From the NCBI GenBank assembly GCA_015520565.1, contig WAPW01000101.1:1-54770 (forward strand): DNA of 54,770 bases, written 5' to 3'. The position numbers and the translations under genes were made by a program. The notes below the pieces were generated by a model. That model saw only the letters and a list, made by a program, of their open reading frames with translations. It was not told the origin of the DNA and did not search any database. Within the stretch, counting starts at the first letter, position 1; every line of letters starts with the position of its first letter. This DNA is from Candidatus Aciduliprofundum sp. (GTDB lineage Archaea; Thermoplasmatota; Thermoplasmata; Thermoplasmatales; Aciduliprofundaceae). Shown here piece by piece: positions 6,265 through 39,651 of the stretch.

Positions 6265-6903
6265 CTACCTCACTTTTTTATTTTCTTTGTAGTATTTGCA
6301 GTAATCTTTTATGGGGCATATATCACATTTTGGCCCTACAGGCCTGCAAATTGTGCGCCCAAACATAACCAATAGTTCATTAATTTCTCTCCAGTATTTC
6401 TTTGGTAGAACTTTCATAAGTGCCTTCTCTGTTTCCTCAGGAGTTTTTGTATTAACCCAGCCAAGACGATTTGAGATGCGATGAACATGAGTATCCACAG
6501 CTATAACATCCCTGCCATAGCATCTTGAAAGCACTATATTTGCAGTTTTTCTTCCCACACCGGGCAATTTCAATAGTTCATCAAGGTTATCTGGAACCTT
6601 ACCATCATATTCCTCGTCAATTATTTTTGCTATCTCTTTTATTTTCTTAGCCTTCTGCTTGTAAAATCCAGCAGGATAAATGAGCTTTGCAATCTCTTGG
6701 ATGGATGCGTTTTTCAAAGCTCTTGGTGAGGGATACTTCTCAAACAACCTCTCAGCAACAGTATAGGTAACTTCATCCTTTGTGCGCTGCGATATTACCG
6801 TTGCAATAAGAACTTTAAATGGCTCTCTGGACTTGTATGGGTGAGGGGGTACATTTGCTCTAAGAATTTCTATGACCTTTTCAATTTCCTCCTTTTTCAC
6901 CAT
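6265..6903 (-). CDS. nth: Endonuclease III, DNA glycosylase/AP lyase
   Basis: Removes oxidised pyrimidines and cleaves abasic sites in base excision repair. The 212 residues match the usual size. It shows VLIATVISQRTKDEVT, the helix-hairpin-helix LPGVGRKTANIVL with the catalytic lysine, and VDTHVHRISNRLG with the catalytic aspartate. C-terminal cysteines 186, 193, 196 and 202 have the C-x6-C-x2-C-x5-C spacing of the [4Fe-4S] cluster loop. A GTGATGA site precedes the ATG. It converges with the small ORF at 6189. Confidence 0.96.
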   Translation of the reverse strand: MVKKEEIEKVIEILRANVPPHPYKSREPFKVLIATVISQRTKDEVTYTVAERLFEKYPSPRALKNASIQEIAKLIYPAGFYKQKAKKIKEIAKIIDEEYDGKVPDNLDELLKLPGVGRKTANIVLSRCYGRDVIAVDTHVHRISNRLGWVNTKTPEETEKALMKVLPKKYWREINELLVMFGRTICRPVGPKCDICPIKDYCKYYKENKKVR

Positions 6904-7355: not shown

Positions 7356-7480
7356 CAGCCCCGGGAGGATTCGAACCCCCGTCGCGGGATCTCCTCGGGA
7401 ACCTTGGTTGCAGGAGGTAGAGGAACTCGCTGGTGGTTCCCACCAAAGTCCCGCATGCTTGACCGCTACACCACGGGGCT
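7356..7480 (-). tRNA. tRNA-Gln (anticodon TTG) with a 52-base intron
   Basis: Exon 1 is 7480-7443 and exon 2 is 7390-7356. The acceptor AGCCCCG pairs with CGGGGCT, the anticodon stem is CGGGA/TCCCG around loop CTTTGGA, and the T arm is GGGGG-TTCGAAT-CCTCC. The discriminator is G and no CCA is encoded. The intron (7391-7442) lies between positions 37 and 38, the canonical archaeal site cut at a bulge-helix-bulge, and can close with GGGAACC/GGTTCCC. Bases 7406-7439 of the intron match the tRNA-Pro intron at 31 of 34 positions. Confidence 0.93.
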
Positions 7481-14288: not shown

Positions 14289-16102
14289 AGCAACCACCAC
14301 CCTACAAGGAGAAATGCTAAGAATGCTATTCCGAGATATGCAGCATAATCTTGTGGATTGCCCGTATATATTCTCTTGATTTCATAAAATCCTCCTGCAA
14401 AGAATTTGCTGAATTTCTCATAAGCCCTATCTATACTATGTTTTAGGAGTGGAGCCCAAGTATCCCTAAGGGGCTTGTAGTAGTTGTGAGCCGCATGAAG
14501 AGCAACTGATGGTGGTGCCTCTCCTGCCAAATAGTTATCGTACTGATCCACAACCCTTGCTTTCTTCGCCATGAACATCAGCATTGCAAAGATGAGTAGT
14601 AGTATGAATGCTATCCAGAACACTGCCATGTTTGCTCCTCCAATGGCAGAAGAATAACTAAATGTTGTGTAATTCAATTTTCCAATTCCATTCTCAACCA
14701 AAATCTTATTTATCCATCCCAAAATCCATCCCGGAACTATTGAGAATATAACTAATGGAACCATCAATATGAACATGGCTGCAAGCATAGGTCCTGGCGC
14801 TTCTTTGACATTCTTATCTTCATCCTTTAACTGACCAAGGAAGACACCATACAAAATTCTATAGCTATATAAGTATGCACCCACTGAAGCTATGAGCATC
14901 AATGGTGCCACTATGACGAATTTTCTTGATATGGCTGCCTCATAAAGCATCCATTTGGAAATAAATCCTGAGGTTAAAGGTATGCCTGCAAGGGCGAATA
15001 TGGCAAATAACACAAACATAAATGTAAAGGGCATTCTGTAGCCAAGACCTCCCATCTCACTAATTTTGTATTTTCCAGTGCGATATATCACCGCACCAGC
15101 TCCCAAGAACAATAAAGATTTGAAGAAGGCATGGTTAAATGCGTGGAACATTGCTCCCCCAATGGCTAGGGGCGTGCCTAAACCTAAACCTATCATCACA
15201 TAACCAAGCTGACCAATGGATGAATATGCTAGCAATTTGCGTATATCATCCTGGAATATTGCTAGAATTGTGCCTATAAATGCAGTTGCAGCCCCTAAGA
15301 GTGCAAATGGATACCCCATTAAAGATACTCCTCGGAATGTACCAAAGGATTGGAGCAAAGATATCCCTGCTATAGAATACATGCTCATAAATATACCAAA
15401 GGCCCCTAGTTTACTTAGCCCTCCAGAGAGAAATGCCACGAATGGCTGCTCTGAAGAATAAGCATAGGGAGCCCACACATGGAATGGTACAATAGCCATT
15501 TTAATGCCGAATCCCAAGATTAAAAATGTGAGTATCCATGGCCAGATGGCATGGGGAATCGCACCCGAGAGGGCATCTGCATAGAGGAAGCTTCCAGTAT
15601 AGTAATAAATTATTCCTATGCCCATTATCAGTAGATATGCAGATAGCACTCCAAATAGCAGGTATCTTCTTGCATATTCACCGGAGGTGCGGAGAACTAG
15701 AAGATAAATGGACCATGACATCAACTCCCAGAACAAATACAAGCTAAGAAAATCCCTTGCCAATAAAACCCCATTAGCTCCTGCAAATCCTAGGAGCATT
15801 AAAGTAGCAAAACCACCTGCTCTTTTTAGTTTTGAGCTCACTGAGAAGAGGAGAGATGAAAATATGACTGTATTCATCATTAGCATGAAGAACCAAGTAG
15901 TTATGTCAAATGTTAAGTTCAATTTAACACCTATATCAATGGTATATGAGCCAAAGTTACCATACCAAAGGTAAAGGAATATTCCACTTATACCTGTGAA
16001 TATCACTGCAATTATAGGAGCATACTTTTTACCGAAGTAAGAGACAAGGGCGCCCACCAATGGAAGCAATACAAATATCCCAAATAGTGTTAATGCATCC
16101 AT
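14282..16102 (-). CDS. mbsH': Second antiporter-like subunit H' of the Mbs/Mbx complex
   Basis: About 606 residues with 14 or more membrane helices and a long C-terminal extension ending in one more helix. It belongs to the NuoL/M/N-MrpA/D antiporter family. Signature segments are GFGIKMAIVPFHVWAPYAYSS, with the conserved lysine, and KLLAYSSIGQLGYVMIG. The C-terminal part (KPLRDTWAPLLKHSIDRAYEKF) may run along the membrane arm. Two antiporter subunits (H and H') separate Mbx/Mbs from Mbh, which has one. The ATG at 16102 follows GGAGGTG; the ORF extends to 16120. Confidence 0.87.
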   Translation of the reverse strand: MDALTLFGIFVLLPLVGALVSYFGKKYAPIIAVIFTGISGIFLYLWYGNFGSYTIDIGVKLNLTFDITTWFFMLMMNTVIFSSLLFSVSSKLKRAGGFATLMLLGFAGANGVLLARDFLSLYLFWELMSWSIYLLVLRTSGEYARRYLLFGVLSAYLLIMGIGIIYYYTGSFLYADALSGAIPHAIWPWILTFLILGFGIKMAIVPFHVWAPYAYSSEQPFVAFLSGGLSKLGAFGIFMSMYSIAGISLLQSFGTFRGVSLMGYPFALLGAATAFIGTILAIFQDDIRKLLAYSSIGQLGYVMIGLGLGTPLAIGGAMFHAFNHAFFKSLLFLGAGAVIYRTGKYKISEMGGLGYRMPFTFMFVLFAIFALAGIPLTSGFISKWMLYEAAISRKFVIVAPLMLIASVGAYLYSYRILYGVFLGQLKDEDKNVKEAPGPMLAAMFILMVPLVIFSIVPGWILGWINKILVENGIGKLNYTTFSYSSAIGGANMAVFWIAFILLLIFAMLMFMAKKARVVDQYDNYLAGEAPPSVALHAAHNYYKPLRDTWAPLLKHSIDRAYEKFSKFFAGGFYEIKRIYTGNPQDYAAYLGIAFLAFLLVGWWLLW

Positions 16103-35512: not shown

Positions 35513-37536
35513 TATTTGGAGTTGTGGCCCTGCTTTTGCTATCTTTGGGTGCCACAACAGTGAGTGCTTCTAGCGTGAATTTCTCGCCACAGGAGATTTG
35601 GACATACAAACCAAAGATAGATACAACCTACGATGCAAGTATGGATACTCCCAGAAATAGAATGAAAACTTCTCTGCATTACGATGTGAATGGAGATGGT
35701 GTTACAGATGTGCTTGTTGAAATACACAATTATACAGCCAGAACATACACCTTAATACTTCTCAGTGGCGCAGATGGAAGCGTTCTTTATCAGAATAAAT
35801 TCACAGATGTTGAATATACTGCACCTCCTGTAGAACCATCTGTTTATTCAGTGACATATATTGATAACAATGGAAACTTGCAAGCATCATACCAGTTCGT
35901 AATTTTCGGAAATCATAGCGATAATAACAGGATATCAATTTACAAGCTTGGCAACGATTTGAGCAATGAATCTTACAGAGGCATAGAAATACCAACAAGC
36001 ATAAACACTCCCTATGGCTCCATACCAATAAGCATGTCCTATGTAGAGGTGCAAATACAAAATTACAACTATTCTGCCAAAGAGGGTTTGCTATTTATGG
36101 GATATTATACGGGATATTACACTTTGCCCCCACCCTCTAACACCGCTGTCTATTTCTCTGAGCTCAACTTAACAATGTTAGATTATGACCTAAATTTGGC
36201 GTGGCAGAGAAAAGAGTTATCACCTACTAGCAGTGGAATTGTACCCTTTGGAATGGAAATAACTAACTTAAATGGCTATGGATTTAATCAAGAACACACT
36301 GAGTTTGAAGGAGCGGATATTATCTTTGTAAACGAGTCCTCGGGAAATACAAATATTGAGGCAATTGAGGCAACAGATAGCAGTGTGCTGTGGAATATAA
36401 CCTTACCCGGATTTGCGTATATATCCTCACCCTTTGATTTCTTGGGAGTTATAAGCTCCATTGATTATAACAACGATAGTAGGGTTGATTTGCAAATTGT
36501 TACCTATTATAACAACCAAACCTATGTGCACTTTGTAGATGCCGATGGAAATGTCATAGCTAGATATGATTGGAGCAAAGTGGCTCCTATCCAAGATGCC
36601 ATGCCCACATACATATTCAATCCCTCAAAACCAGCAACGGTGCAGCATAATACAATAGATTTGAATGGAGATGGCAGCAGAGATATTGCCTTCCTTGTAA
36701 ATTACACTCTCCTTGTGGCATTTGACATAAAGAACAATCAAACCTTGTATACAAGGAATTTAAGTGGAGAGTACAGTTACTATTTTGGCTTGATGCTATC
36801 AAAACAAGATATAAACGGCGATGGCATTGATGACCTATTTTTATACGGAGGAAATATGAGTTCAGGGCAGTATTGGTACAAGCTGAACTACACCGCATTG
36901 GATGGCGCCTCTGGTAAGATTATTTGGAGCGCTATTTATGAGCATGTCATAAACCCAGCTCTTGGACCAATATACCCGGTGTACTTCTCAGATTTAAATG
37001 GTGATGGTTATGGAGAAGATATAATCATCCAAGGTTATACTGCTGACTCTTCTGGAGTTCATGCAAATGTAACAGTTATATCTATGAAAGATGGTAGCAA
37101 GCTCTTAACTTTCCAAGTGAATAGCTCTGTTTCAAATACAGATTTTAAATCTTGGAGTACTTTGGCAGTGATGGTAGGTGATGTGAATGGTGACGGAATA
37201 AATGACATGGAAATTTTAATGTATTATTCCACCAAATTGTCCAACAACGAACCATACGAGGATACTTTCATCCGCATTTTCAGCGGCTCTGATGGTACAT
37301 TACTATGGCGTGGAGATGTGATCGGGCAACATATTCCAACAAATATAGTCAGAATGTCTTGGAGTGGAGAATATAGAGCAAGTAGAGTGACTACAAACAA
37401 CAATGATATTCTAATCACCACAGAAGATTCTGTGAGCGATTACGAAGTTCAAAGTGCTGTGCCAGAGTTCAATACAATATTCTTGCCCATATTAGCCATA
37501 ACTATTGCAGCGGTGATTTATCTCCGCCGCAAATAA
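35494..37536 (+). CDS. Exported FG-GAP/VCBS-repeat surface protein with PEF-CTERM-like tail
   Basis: 680 residues. The N-terminal signal peptide (YLIFGVVALLLLSLGATTVSA) is followed by a beta-propeller-like body. Calcium-binding D-x-N-G-D-G repeats include DVNGDGVTD, DLNGDGSRD, DINGDGIDD, DLNGDGYGE and DVNGDGIND. The C-terminus is VPEFNTIFLPILAITIAAVIYLRRK in two parts: a PEF motif, then a membrane helix and basic end, like archaeosortase-processed PEF-CTERM proteins. Start uncertain: the ATG at 35494, or TTG at 35509, which has a better spaced GGAGGGG and overlaps the previous stop. Confidence 0.8.
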   Translation: MEGKYLIFGVVALLLLSLGATTVSASSVNFSPQEIWTYKPKIDTTYDASMDTPRNRMKTSLHYDVNGDGVTDVLVEIHNYTARTYTLILLSGADGSVLYQNKFTDVEYTAPPVEPSVYSVTYIDNNGNLQASYQFVIFGNHSDNNRISIYKLGNDLSNESYRGIEIPTSINTPYGSIPISMSYVEVQIQNYNYSAKEGLLFMGYYTGYYTLPPPSNTAVYFSELNLTMLDYDLNLAWQRKELSPTSSGIVPFGMEITNLNGYGFNQEHTEFEGADIIFVNESSGNTNIEAIEATDSSVLWNITLPGFAYISSPFDFLGVISSIDYNNDSRVDLQIVTYYNNQTYVHFVDADGNVIARYDWSKVAPIQDAMPTYIFNPSKPATVQHNTIDLNGDGSRDIAFLVNYTLLVAFDIKNNQTLYTRNLSGEYSYYFGLMLSKQDINGDGIDDLFLYGGNMSSGQYWYKLNYTALDGASGKIIWSAIYEHVINPALGPIYPVYFSDLNGDGYGEDIIIQGYTADSSGVHANVTVISMKDGSKLLTFQVNSSVSNTDFKSWSTLAVMVGDVNGDGINDMEILMYYSTKLSNNEPYEDTFIRIFSGSDGTLLWRGDVIGQHIPTNIVRMSWSGEYRASRVTTNNNDILITTEDSVSDYEVQSAVPEFNTIFLPILAITIAAVIYLRRK

Positions 37537-37671
37537 TTTTTTATTTTTATACACCATTTTTGAAGGTTTGATTTGTCCTTAGTTTTTCTATTTTCTCCTA
37601 AATCGTTTGTATAACCTAAGAATTTCAATTCCTCTATGAATTTTTTTCTAGCTCATTTTTCTCATTCTCTT

Positions 37672-37796
37672 TTTACCATTTTCACCACTTTTTACCACTT
37701 TTGATGGGTAAATACGGGTAAAACTAATTCCGCTTGCAATTTTTACCATTTTTACCATTTTTTTACCACTTTTACCACCTTTTTAAAGTGGTAAAA
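37672..37796. repeat. Cluster of TTTTACCA iterations
   Basis: Within 125 bases TTTTACCA or TTTTCACCA followed by C/T-TTT occurs about eight times in the same direction, mixed with GGGTAAA motifs. It ends in an inverted pair TTTTTACCACTTT-like / AAAGTGGTAAAAA around 37771-37796. More GGTAAAA copies occur at 38035-38053. No coding frame runs through it. Because flanking genes converge here it is not their promoter. Iterons, a protein-binding array or an origin-like element are possible readings. Confidence 0.5.
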
Positions 37797-37900: not shown

Positions 37901-38117
37901 AGGGTTAAAATGGGTAAAATGCATGAATTTTCATGGATAAGGGGAGGAAAGAGCAATCAAGGGTATGGGTCCGGGAATGCCCAGCGATGCCCATCAAGTT
38001 GCGTGAATTTTTCAAGCTTTTACCCCCAGTTTCTTGGGTAAAAGTGGTAAAAGATTTAAGCTCTTTACTCCCGCAGTCATCAAAAATAATATATCCTACC
38101 TTCCTTCTCTTATTTTT

Positions 38118-38246
38118 GGGCATCTGGGCCCCCGGCGGAGAGCGATGTGTCATCGCACAATGATGCTTGGGCCAGAAGGTGCCCTATAATCCCCCGGCAG
38201 GGTCAGGCACCTTGAAAAATGATAGGTGCTGTTAATGTCGGGGGAT
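38118..38246 (+). ncRNA. Candidate structured RNA with alternative stems
   Basis: GC-rich block in AT-rich surroundings, with a TATA-like AATAATATATCC at about 38084-38096. Stems seen: GGCATC (38119-38124) with GATGCT (38162-38167); GCGATG-tgt-CATCGC (38142-38156); TCCCCCGGCA (38190-38199) with TGTCGGGGGA (38236-38245), ten pairs including one G-T; and GGCACCT (38206-38212) with AGGTGCT (38224-38230). AAGGTGCC (38176-38183) pairs perfectly with GGCACCTT (38206-38213), competing with the last stem. Strand is uncertain. On the minus strand it would be the trkH 3' untranslated region. Confidence 0.5.
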
Positions 38247-38247
38247 A

Positions 38248-39651
38248 TTATCTTCTTATCATATCCGCAAGGAGAATTAGAATTGGAAATATTTCTAACC
38301 TACCAAACCACATCTCTAAAATTAGAGTAACCTTTTCAACCCAAGGCATAAGGGGAGAAGTCAATCCCACAGTTAGGCCCACATTGCCCTCCGCACTTGC
38401 AACTTCAAATAGAGAGTTAACCAAGCTATGTCCGTAGGCCATGAATATAAAAGCACCAAATAGAAGTATGAAAAGATAGGTGGTGGTATAAACAGCCACA
38501 TCCCTAACTTCTGAGGACTCAAAAACTTTCTTGCCTATCTTAAATGGAATAATGGCACTCTGTGGATATAACCTCACTTTAACATACCAGACAATTCCAT
38601 AAACCAATACTATGACCCTTATGAGCTTCAAAGCGGAAGATGTGGAGCCATAGGCGCCTCCAAATATCATACTCAAAATCAATATTGTTTTATCAAAGCT
38701 AGGCAAGTTAGAAAGGTTAGAGAGGCTAAATCCAGTGCCTGTTAAGGCCGAAGTTACATGAAAGAATGCCTGCAAAGATGCCATGCTCCACCCAGAGCCC
38801 AAATATACTAGGTGCAATAGCATCATTCCTGAGAAAAATATTATTATGACCACCATGGCTTTCACTTCTATGCTCATAAACTTCCTAAATTTGCCTCGGA
38901 ATAGATTTATGTGAGATACAAAAGATGTACCTCCAGCAAACATTGCAAATATCATGGCTATGGCAACATAGGGAGAGTATGCAGCTATACTATTATTCGT
39001 GACGGCAAAACCACCAGTGGCGAGGGCGGTCATTGCAATATTTACTGCATCAAATAGAGGGACTTTTAAAAGGTAGAATATGAATGCAAATAGAAATGTA
39101 TAGAAAAGATAGATAACCCATATTTTTCTCACCGTTCCAACTACCGTGGGCTCTGTCTTATCACTCCTCCCCTCTGCAAAATAAAGAGTTTGAACTACCT
39201 TGCTAGTACGGTACATAACGGATAAGAAAAGAGCTATTACTCCAACACCCCCTATCCACTCTGTAAGGGAGCGCCATAGAAGTATGCTCTTTGGGAGAAT
39301 TTCAACATTTGTAAACATAGTTAATCCTGTGGCCGTAAAACCTGACATACTCTCAAACCATGCATCAAGGGGATTCAAATACCCAGAAATAATGAATGGA
39401 ATTGCGCCAAATAGGGACATGAAGAGCCAGCCAATTGCCGCTATCTTAAAAGAGTCCCTGAGCGTTAAATTCTGGGGCGGTGGAAGTTTCATAAATGGAA
39501 CCCATATAAATAAAATCCAGCTTGCAGGAAATAGGAAAGATAGGGTTAATATTACGCTTCTATCAACTATTAGGGCATAAACACCATCAATGAGCATAAA
39601 GATAGATACATAGGTTAGGAGTTTCAGTGAGTAATAAAGTACTTTATTCAT
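38248..39651 (-). CDS. trkH: Potassium uptake protein TrkH/KtrB
   Basis: 467-residue ion-conducting membrane subunit with four MPM repeats. Filter-like segments are SMSGFTATGLTMF, ALATGGFAVTNNS, SALTGTGFSLSNL and ASAEGNVGLTVG. Hydrophobic helices flank each. It sits directly after trkA, four bases apart, so the regulatory and channel subunits are made together. Confidence 0.93.
   Translation of the reverse strand: MNKVLYYSLKLLTYVSIFMLIDGVYALIVDRSVILTLSFLFPASWILFIWVPFMKLPPPQNLTLRDSFKIAAIGWLFMSLFGAIPFIISGYLNPLDAWFESMSGFTATGLTMFTNVEILPKSILLWRSLTEWIGGVGVIALFLSVMYRTSKVVQTLYFAEGRSDKTEPTVVGTVRKIWVIYLFYTFLFAFIFYLLKVPLFDAVNIAMTALATGGFAVTNNSIAAYSPYVAIAMIFAMFAGGTSFVSHINLFRGKFRKFMSIEVKAMVVIIIFFSGMMLLHLVYLGSGWSMASLQAFFHVTSALTGTGFSLSNLSNLPSFDKTILILSMIFGGAYGSTSSALKLIRVIVLVYGIVWYVKVRLYPQSAIIPFKIGKKVFESSEVRDVAVYTTTYLFILLFGAFIFMAYGHSLVNSLFEVASAEGNVGLTVGLTSPLMPWVEKVTLILEMWFGRLEIFPILILLADMIRR

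Follow-up and report, generated by a model that had tools for sequence, protein, structure and literature searches.

Between two convergent genes in the window (the whole 54,770-nt stretch of Candidatus Aciduliprofundum sp. DNA analysed here) lies a compact, GC-rich element, and the question it raises is whether it encodes an RNA and, if so, of what kind. An earlier note had described a structured RNA with competing stems in a switch-like arrangement. Our analysis supports the first part of this description: that the + strand here carries a structured RNA gene is very probable. With high confidence, we read 38118-38247 (+) as encoding an archaeal H/ACA guide sRNA of two hairpins, relatives of hairpins II and III in HgcG/Pab40/Pf7/Afu4. 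The predicted features are listed below.

38086-38093 (+): TATA-like box ATAATATA, about 25-32 nt 5' of hairpin 1 and preceded by an A-rich, BRE-like CAAAAA
38118-38188 (+): hairpin 1 (HP1), putative H/ACA hairpin with K-turn; two-sided changes in every helix
38118-38125 with 38177-38184 (+): HP1 lower stem, 8 pairs; two-sided changes in relatives
38126-38130 (+): HP1 candidate left guide strand GGGCC; GGGC complements 23S GCCC of helix 92
38131-38137 with 38164-38171 (+): HP1 GA stem, one bulged base; two-sided changes in relatives
38138-38163 (+): HP1 K-turn and terminal stem; GA 38138-38139, bulge AAU 38159-38161, GA 38162-38163
38172-38176 (+): HP1 candidate right guide strand CCAGA; CAG complements CUG before U2606
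38186-38188 (+): HP1 box AUA, 14 nt beyond the pair that closes the pocket
38190-38247 (+): hairpin 2 (HP2), putative H/ACA hairpin with K-loop; Rfam match, folding, two-sided changes
38191-38199 with 38236-38244 (+): HP2 lower stem, 9 pairs; conserved pairing
38200-38205 (+): HP2 candidate left guide strand GGGUCA; complements 23S UGACCC (1978-1983); GGGUCA in 57/67 relatives
38206-38212 with 38224-38230 (+): HP2 GA stem, 7 pairs; conserved pairing
38214-38222 (+): HP2 K-loop GAAAAAUGA (GA-AAAAU-GA); GA and UGA conserved
38231-38235 (+): HP2 candidate right guide strand GUUAA; GUUA complements 23S UAAC (1972-1975); GUUA in 58/67 relatives
38245-38247 (+): HP2 box AUA, 14 nt beyond the G-U pair that closes the pocket

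Locus, folding and family

The element consists of two hairpins in tandem. A + strand gene ends at 37536, and trkH (38248-39651) is convergent on the - strand, its stop codon (38248-38250) abutting the last box of the RNA. This convergent trkH adjoins the RNA 3' end at all 15 family loci checked and in Aciduliprofundum sp. JdFR-45 (loci L046-L061 together), and does not do so in other relatives. The TATA-like box that the earlier note had placed upstream was found; an RAAAA plus A/T box occurs at about -33 to -23 of HP1 in most of 15 family members, where the upstream DNA has otherwise diverged around it, and the RNA would be transcribed from this side. The long intergenic stretch upstream also holds short tandem arrays of TTTTTACCA(C) at 37669-37785, with complementary GGTAAAA copies nearby. 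The GC contrast with the surroundings is real, though only modest (0.54 against about 0.35-0.46 in the flanks). Folding of 38118-38246 (+) is far stronger than expected by chance (z -5.15, 0/200 shuffles as good), as is that of the 3' hairpin alone (z -5.28, 0/200), while the - strand of the same interval folds more weakly (z -3.9).

The window's genome is closely related to Aciduliprofundum / DHVE2 archaea. DNA searches showed the element to be present in its genus and in almost every member of the family, and a covariance model (R1) had hits in 53 of the 117 genomes searched in the order and in 127 of a 400-genome sample of the class, almost always as one copy per genome. In a plain MAFFT alignment of 17 close relatives, 94.7% of cells pair in the two-hairpin structure, and 16 of 39 pairs show two-sided change (shuffled mean 5.9, 0/500). 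The count of compensatory changes in related archaea that the earlier note had proposed as a check came out clearly in favor of a structured RNA: two-sided change with pairing retained was seen in 36 of 39 pairs among 68 aligned sequences, an alignment fitted to the covariance model and hence biased towards it. Two-sided cells in this alignment number 709 (208 in shuffles), and the covariation score is 0.669, compared with 0.210 when shuffled and at most 0.102 with partners slid; sliding the partners lowers pairing from 91% to 41-46%.

At a permissive threshold, the sole notable Rfam match was HgcG (Pab40, H/ACA), over the full model, with 31 bits (E 1e-6 in a small search) against a gathering score of 77 bits (RF00064). 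The best relative, the homologue in Aciduliprofundum sp. JdFR-45, aligned to all three HgcG hairpins with 65 bits (E 2e-17), still below this cut-off. The same search gave no match to SRP RNA, RNase P RNA, C/D sRNA or other Rfam families, in agreement with the absence of such hallmarks noted before. Elsewhere in the window, at 7356-7480 (-), Rfam reports a 125-nt tRNA gene that was missed by ARAGORN and probably contains an intron.

Anatomy of the two hairpins

The stems described in the earlier note are present, including those in the 5' half, the inner 7-pair stem (38206-38212 with 38224-38230) and the outer stem of 10 pairs (38190-38199 with 38236-38245). The outermost U-A pair of the last (38190-38245) is, however, broken in most relatives (10/15 close relatives and 34/58 in the wider alignment), and its A fits better as the opening base of the HP2 AUA box. 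What that note missed are the signs of an H/ACA RNA in the sequence: the GA...UGA of a K-turn or K-loop, the pocket and the ANA box.

Each of these fits what is expected of an archaeal H/ACA hairpin, namely an internal pocket above a lower stem of about 9 pairs, a K-turn or K-loop that contains tandem G-A pairs and sits 10 layers above the pocket, and an ANA box 14-15 nt from the closing pair (14 nt in both hairpins). The two-part complementarity around an rRNA uridine that should accompany them is decisive for HP2 and, for HP1, supported by 16 species. Productive archaeal guides are reported to have a GA stem of 10 and an ANA box at a distance of 14 or 15 nt (PMC4652768), and both hairpins agree with this rule in their 10-layer GA stem and in the position of the box; in HP2 the upper stem is made up of 7 pairs, a U-U and two G-A layers. 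The HP1 K-turn is well kept in 67 relatives, with the 5' GA in 57 and the 3' UGA in 61. Its box reads ACA in 29 of these relatives, AUA in 20, AAA in 7 and AGA in 3, and the HP2 box reads ACA in 32, AUA in 22 and AAA in 11, such that the canonical ACA carried by distant relatives is the commonest ANA form. The minimum free energy (MFE) fold of the window sequence shuts the HP1 pocket by pairing GGCCC with GGGCC; as the functional fold of HP1 we instead adopted the one that the relatives favor, with the K-turn and a single bulged base.

The window's genome carries genes for both partner proteins that were searched, Cbf5 (379 bits) and Nop10 (84 bits). In the mechanism we propose, L7Ae would bind each hairpin at its K-turn or K-loop and Cbf5-Nop10-Gar1 would contact the stems as well as the AUA box. 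The pocket, being open, would then pair with 23S rRNA on both flanks of one uridine, which Cbf5 would isomerise to pseudouridine. HP2 is expected to act in this way on U1976 (helix 69, E. coli 1915) and HP1 most likely on U2606 (A-loop, helix 92, E. coli 2554).

Predicted targets and competing readings

The assignment of HP2 is the firmer of the two. Against the organism's own 23S and 16S rRNA, U1976 (GUAAC-UA-UGACCC) scores -19.7 kcal/mol with a runner-up at -12.5, these and all other guide-target energies being simple stacking sums rather than RNAsnoop values. Across 16 species no other site is as well conserved as U1976, whose mean is -18.3; among 30 shuffles of the guide, the best gave -10.1. 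The complementarity is decisive, and HP2 is predicted to direct pseudouridylation of U1976. This is the site known for HgcG/Pab40/Pf7 of the Thermococcales (RF00064), which are likewise tandem H/ACA hairpins, and the last hairpin of Pab40 guides P. abyssi L2016, equivalent to E. coli 1915 (PMC4652768, PMC2584109). In the window's RNA, too, it is the last hairpin that is complementary to helix 69. The RNAs differ in that HgcG/Pab40 has three hairpins and the window's RNA two, with AUA boxes and a score below the Rfam cut-off. Afu4 of Archaeoglobus fulgidus also differs in having three motifs, of which Af4.3 can guide L1970 (E. coli 1915; PMC4652768) and shares with HP2 both this site and a basal G-U pair. 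A Haloferax H/ACA RNA has an HP2 predicted to guide E. coli 1915/1917 (PMC2584109), but its hairpins are parted by a long spacer and the site given for its HP1 is E. coli 2586.

For HP1, the organism's own rRNAs alone give no decisive site, as several others score equal to or better than U2606. Across the 16 species, U2606 (GGGGCUG-UAC-GCCCAU) emerges as the best conserved site (mean -17.0, 16/16), with the next site at -12.2 and the best shuffle at -11.5, and 16S rRNA from the same 16 species offers no HP1 site comparable to it. The own-genome candidates at 23S 389, 1166 and 2341 and 16S 287 were all outscored by U2606 once the 16 species were used. In 11 species, all of the order, rRNA CUG occurs with guide CAG, and in five from other families rRNA UUG occurs with guide CAA; this is guide-target covariation, probably reflecting one or a few evolutionary events rather than 16. 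The pairing at U2606 is unusual in leaving three target bases and one base of each guide strand unpaired, and in the window genome the 5' side has only 3 base pairs. We consider it reasonably probable that HP1 directs modification of U2606, a prediction graded below that for HP2 because its pairing geometry is weaker.

Published guides place this prediction among known sites. Pab40.2, the hairpin comparable to HP1, is instead assigned to L1932 (PMC4652768), and as a target of HP1 this site was rejected, the region near the organism's own 1892 being unsuitable; the Pab40.1 site (L2588) was likewise rejected, as the guide strands do not match. Af4.2b is assigned to L2601 (PMC4652768). Judged by its spacing from helix 69, 631 nt as against 630 here, that position would lie no more than about one base from the A-loop site. 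Pab35.1 (HgcF) of P. abyssi belongs to a different RNA gene and targets a neighboring A-loop uridine, L2672, which is E. coli 2555 when counted from U2669, E. coli 2552 (PMC2584109). Position 2555 is an A in the window genome, and therefore only 2554 can be the target there.

The alternative with most in its favor is that HP2 is the only working guide for a named site and that HP1 is structural or degenerate, with a closed pocket, or serves another target. The MFE closure of the HP1 pocket, the short 5' duplex at U2606, the similar scores of other own-genome sites and the different assignment of Pab40.2 (PMC4652768) all speak for it. Conversely, the K-turn and ANA box of HP1 are well conserved across the class, and in all 16 species its guide strands follow the sequence of the A-loop, beating every shuffled control. 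We regard this alternative as rather unlikely, and prefer the reading of HP1 as a second guide.

An RNA switch, as the earlier note had envisaged, would have 38176-38183 pair with 38206-38213, disrupting the HP1 lower stem and the HP2 upper stem and so regulating a gene or the RNA's own activity. The 8-pair complement is indeed perfect in the window. In the 17 relatives, however, 83.0% of cells pair in this helix against 80.7% in shuffles, two-sided change occurs in 3 of its pairs against 1.6, and one central pair is broken in 8, while the competing two-hairpin structure is kept at 94.7% and both hairpins are independently conserved. The mutually exclusive helices are thus not both conserved, as would be expected of a riboswitch-like element, and there is no + strand gene directly downstream, the neighbor being the convergent trkH. 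As shuffles retain the alternative helix about as well, the switch reading is rejected and its probability is very low. That the element is merely a transcription terminator or bidirectional hairpin, with no RNA gene, is given almost no weight even though it lies between convergent genes beside the trkH stop codon, as no T-run terminator was detected at the element, relatives outside the family (except JdFR-45) keep it without adjoining trkH, and the unpaired pockets and boxes are conserved.

A third hairpin and other candidate guides in the lineage

Most relatives outside the window's family, and also JdFR-45, possess a third hairpin with a K-turn and box immediately upstream of HP1, which is absent from the HP1-HP2 array in the window. 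Loci with this upstream hairpin include L061/L026, L062, L067, L073, L079, L081 and L090, and the guides differ between families. A model of the third hairpin (R2) hits another contig of the same genome, C45, at 15715-15777 (+) with E 6e-7. The C45 element is a free-standing H/ACA hairpin with the same K-loop as the window's RNA, and is probably the relocated third hairpin. Its guides match U2563 of the organism's own 23S rRNA (UCGUC-UC-UCCCUA) at -24.5 kcal/mol, the next different site scoring -13.3. By constant spacing, U2563 would correspond to P. abyssi 2603, a position whose modification in Thermococcales needs no guide (PMC6138745). At the U2563 site, the other members of the order have rRNA UUCC, and some of their upstream hairpins carry GGAA. 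At about 2550-2570 of the organism's own 23S rRNA (locus L024), by the peptidyl transferase centre, the sequence is GUUGUCGUCUCUCCCUAUCC in the window's family as against GAUGUCGUCU(C/G)UUCCUAUCC in the rest of the order.

Contig C67 carries, near 6489-6505 (-), an H/ACA-like hairpin that shares the K-loop of the window's RNA and has an AUA box, and whose guides match 16S U456 (GACGGG-UG-CCAGCC, 530 loop) at -24.8 kcal/mol; this uridine we take to be E. coli 516. There are also 14-nt matches on contigs C93, C62 and C27.

One way to draw these observations together is that this Thermoplasmatota guide RNA has been rebuilt along with its rRNA, an account for which we judge the chances to be about even. 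Hairpin II would have come to address the A-loop uridine (E. coli 2554) through matched changes in guide and rRNA, hairpin I would have left the array in the window's family, and the free-standing C45 hairpin would guide E. coli 2511 (P. abyssi 2603, guide-less in Thermococcales).

In the literature searched, no earlier description of H/ACA guides from Thermoplasmatota came up. The guide RNA is ordinary in kind and its class is known; it is new for the lineage as far as we could find, and comparison with relatives backs it well. At its cut-off, the Rfam HgcG model misses the window's lineage, and model R1 recovers the element across the class. The analysis predicts precise positions of pseudouridine in the two functional centres contacting A-site tRNA, and the relatives offer a natural series of joint changes in guide and target. 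It also opens to test why one archaeal group guides a site that another modifies without a guide.
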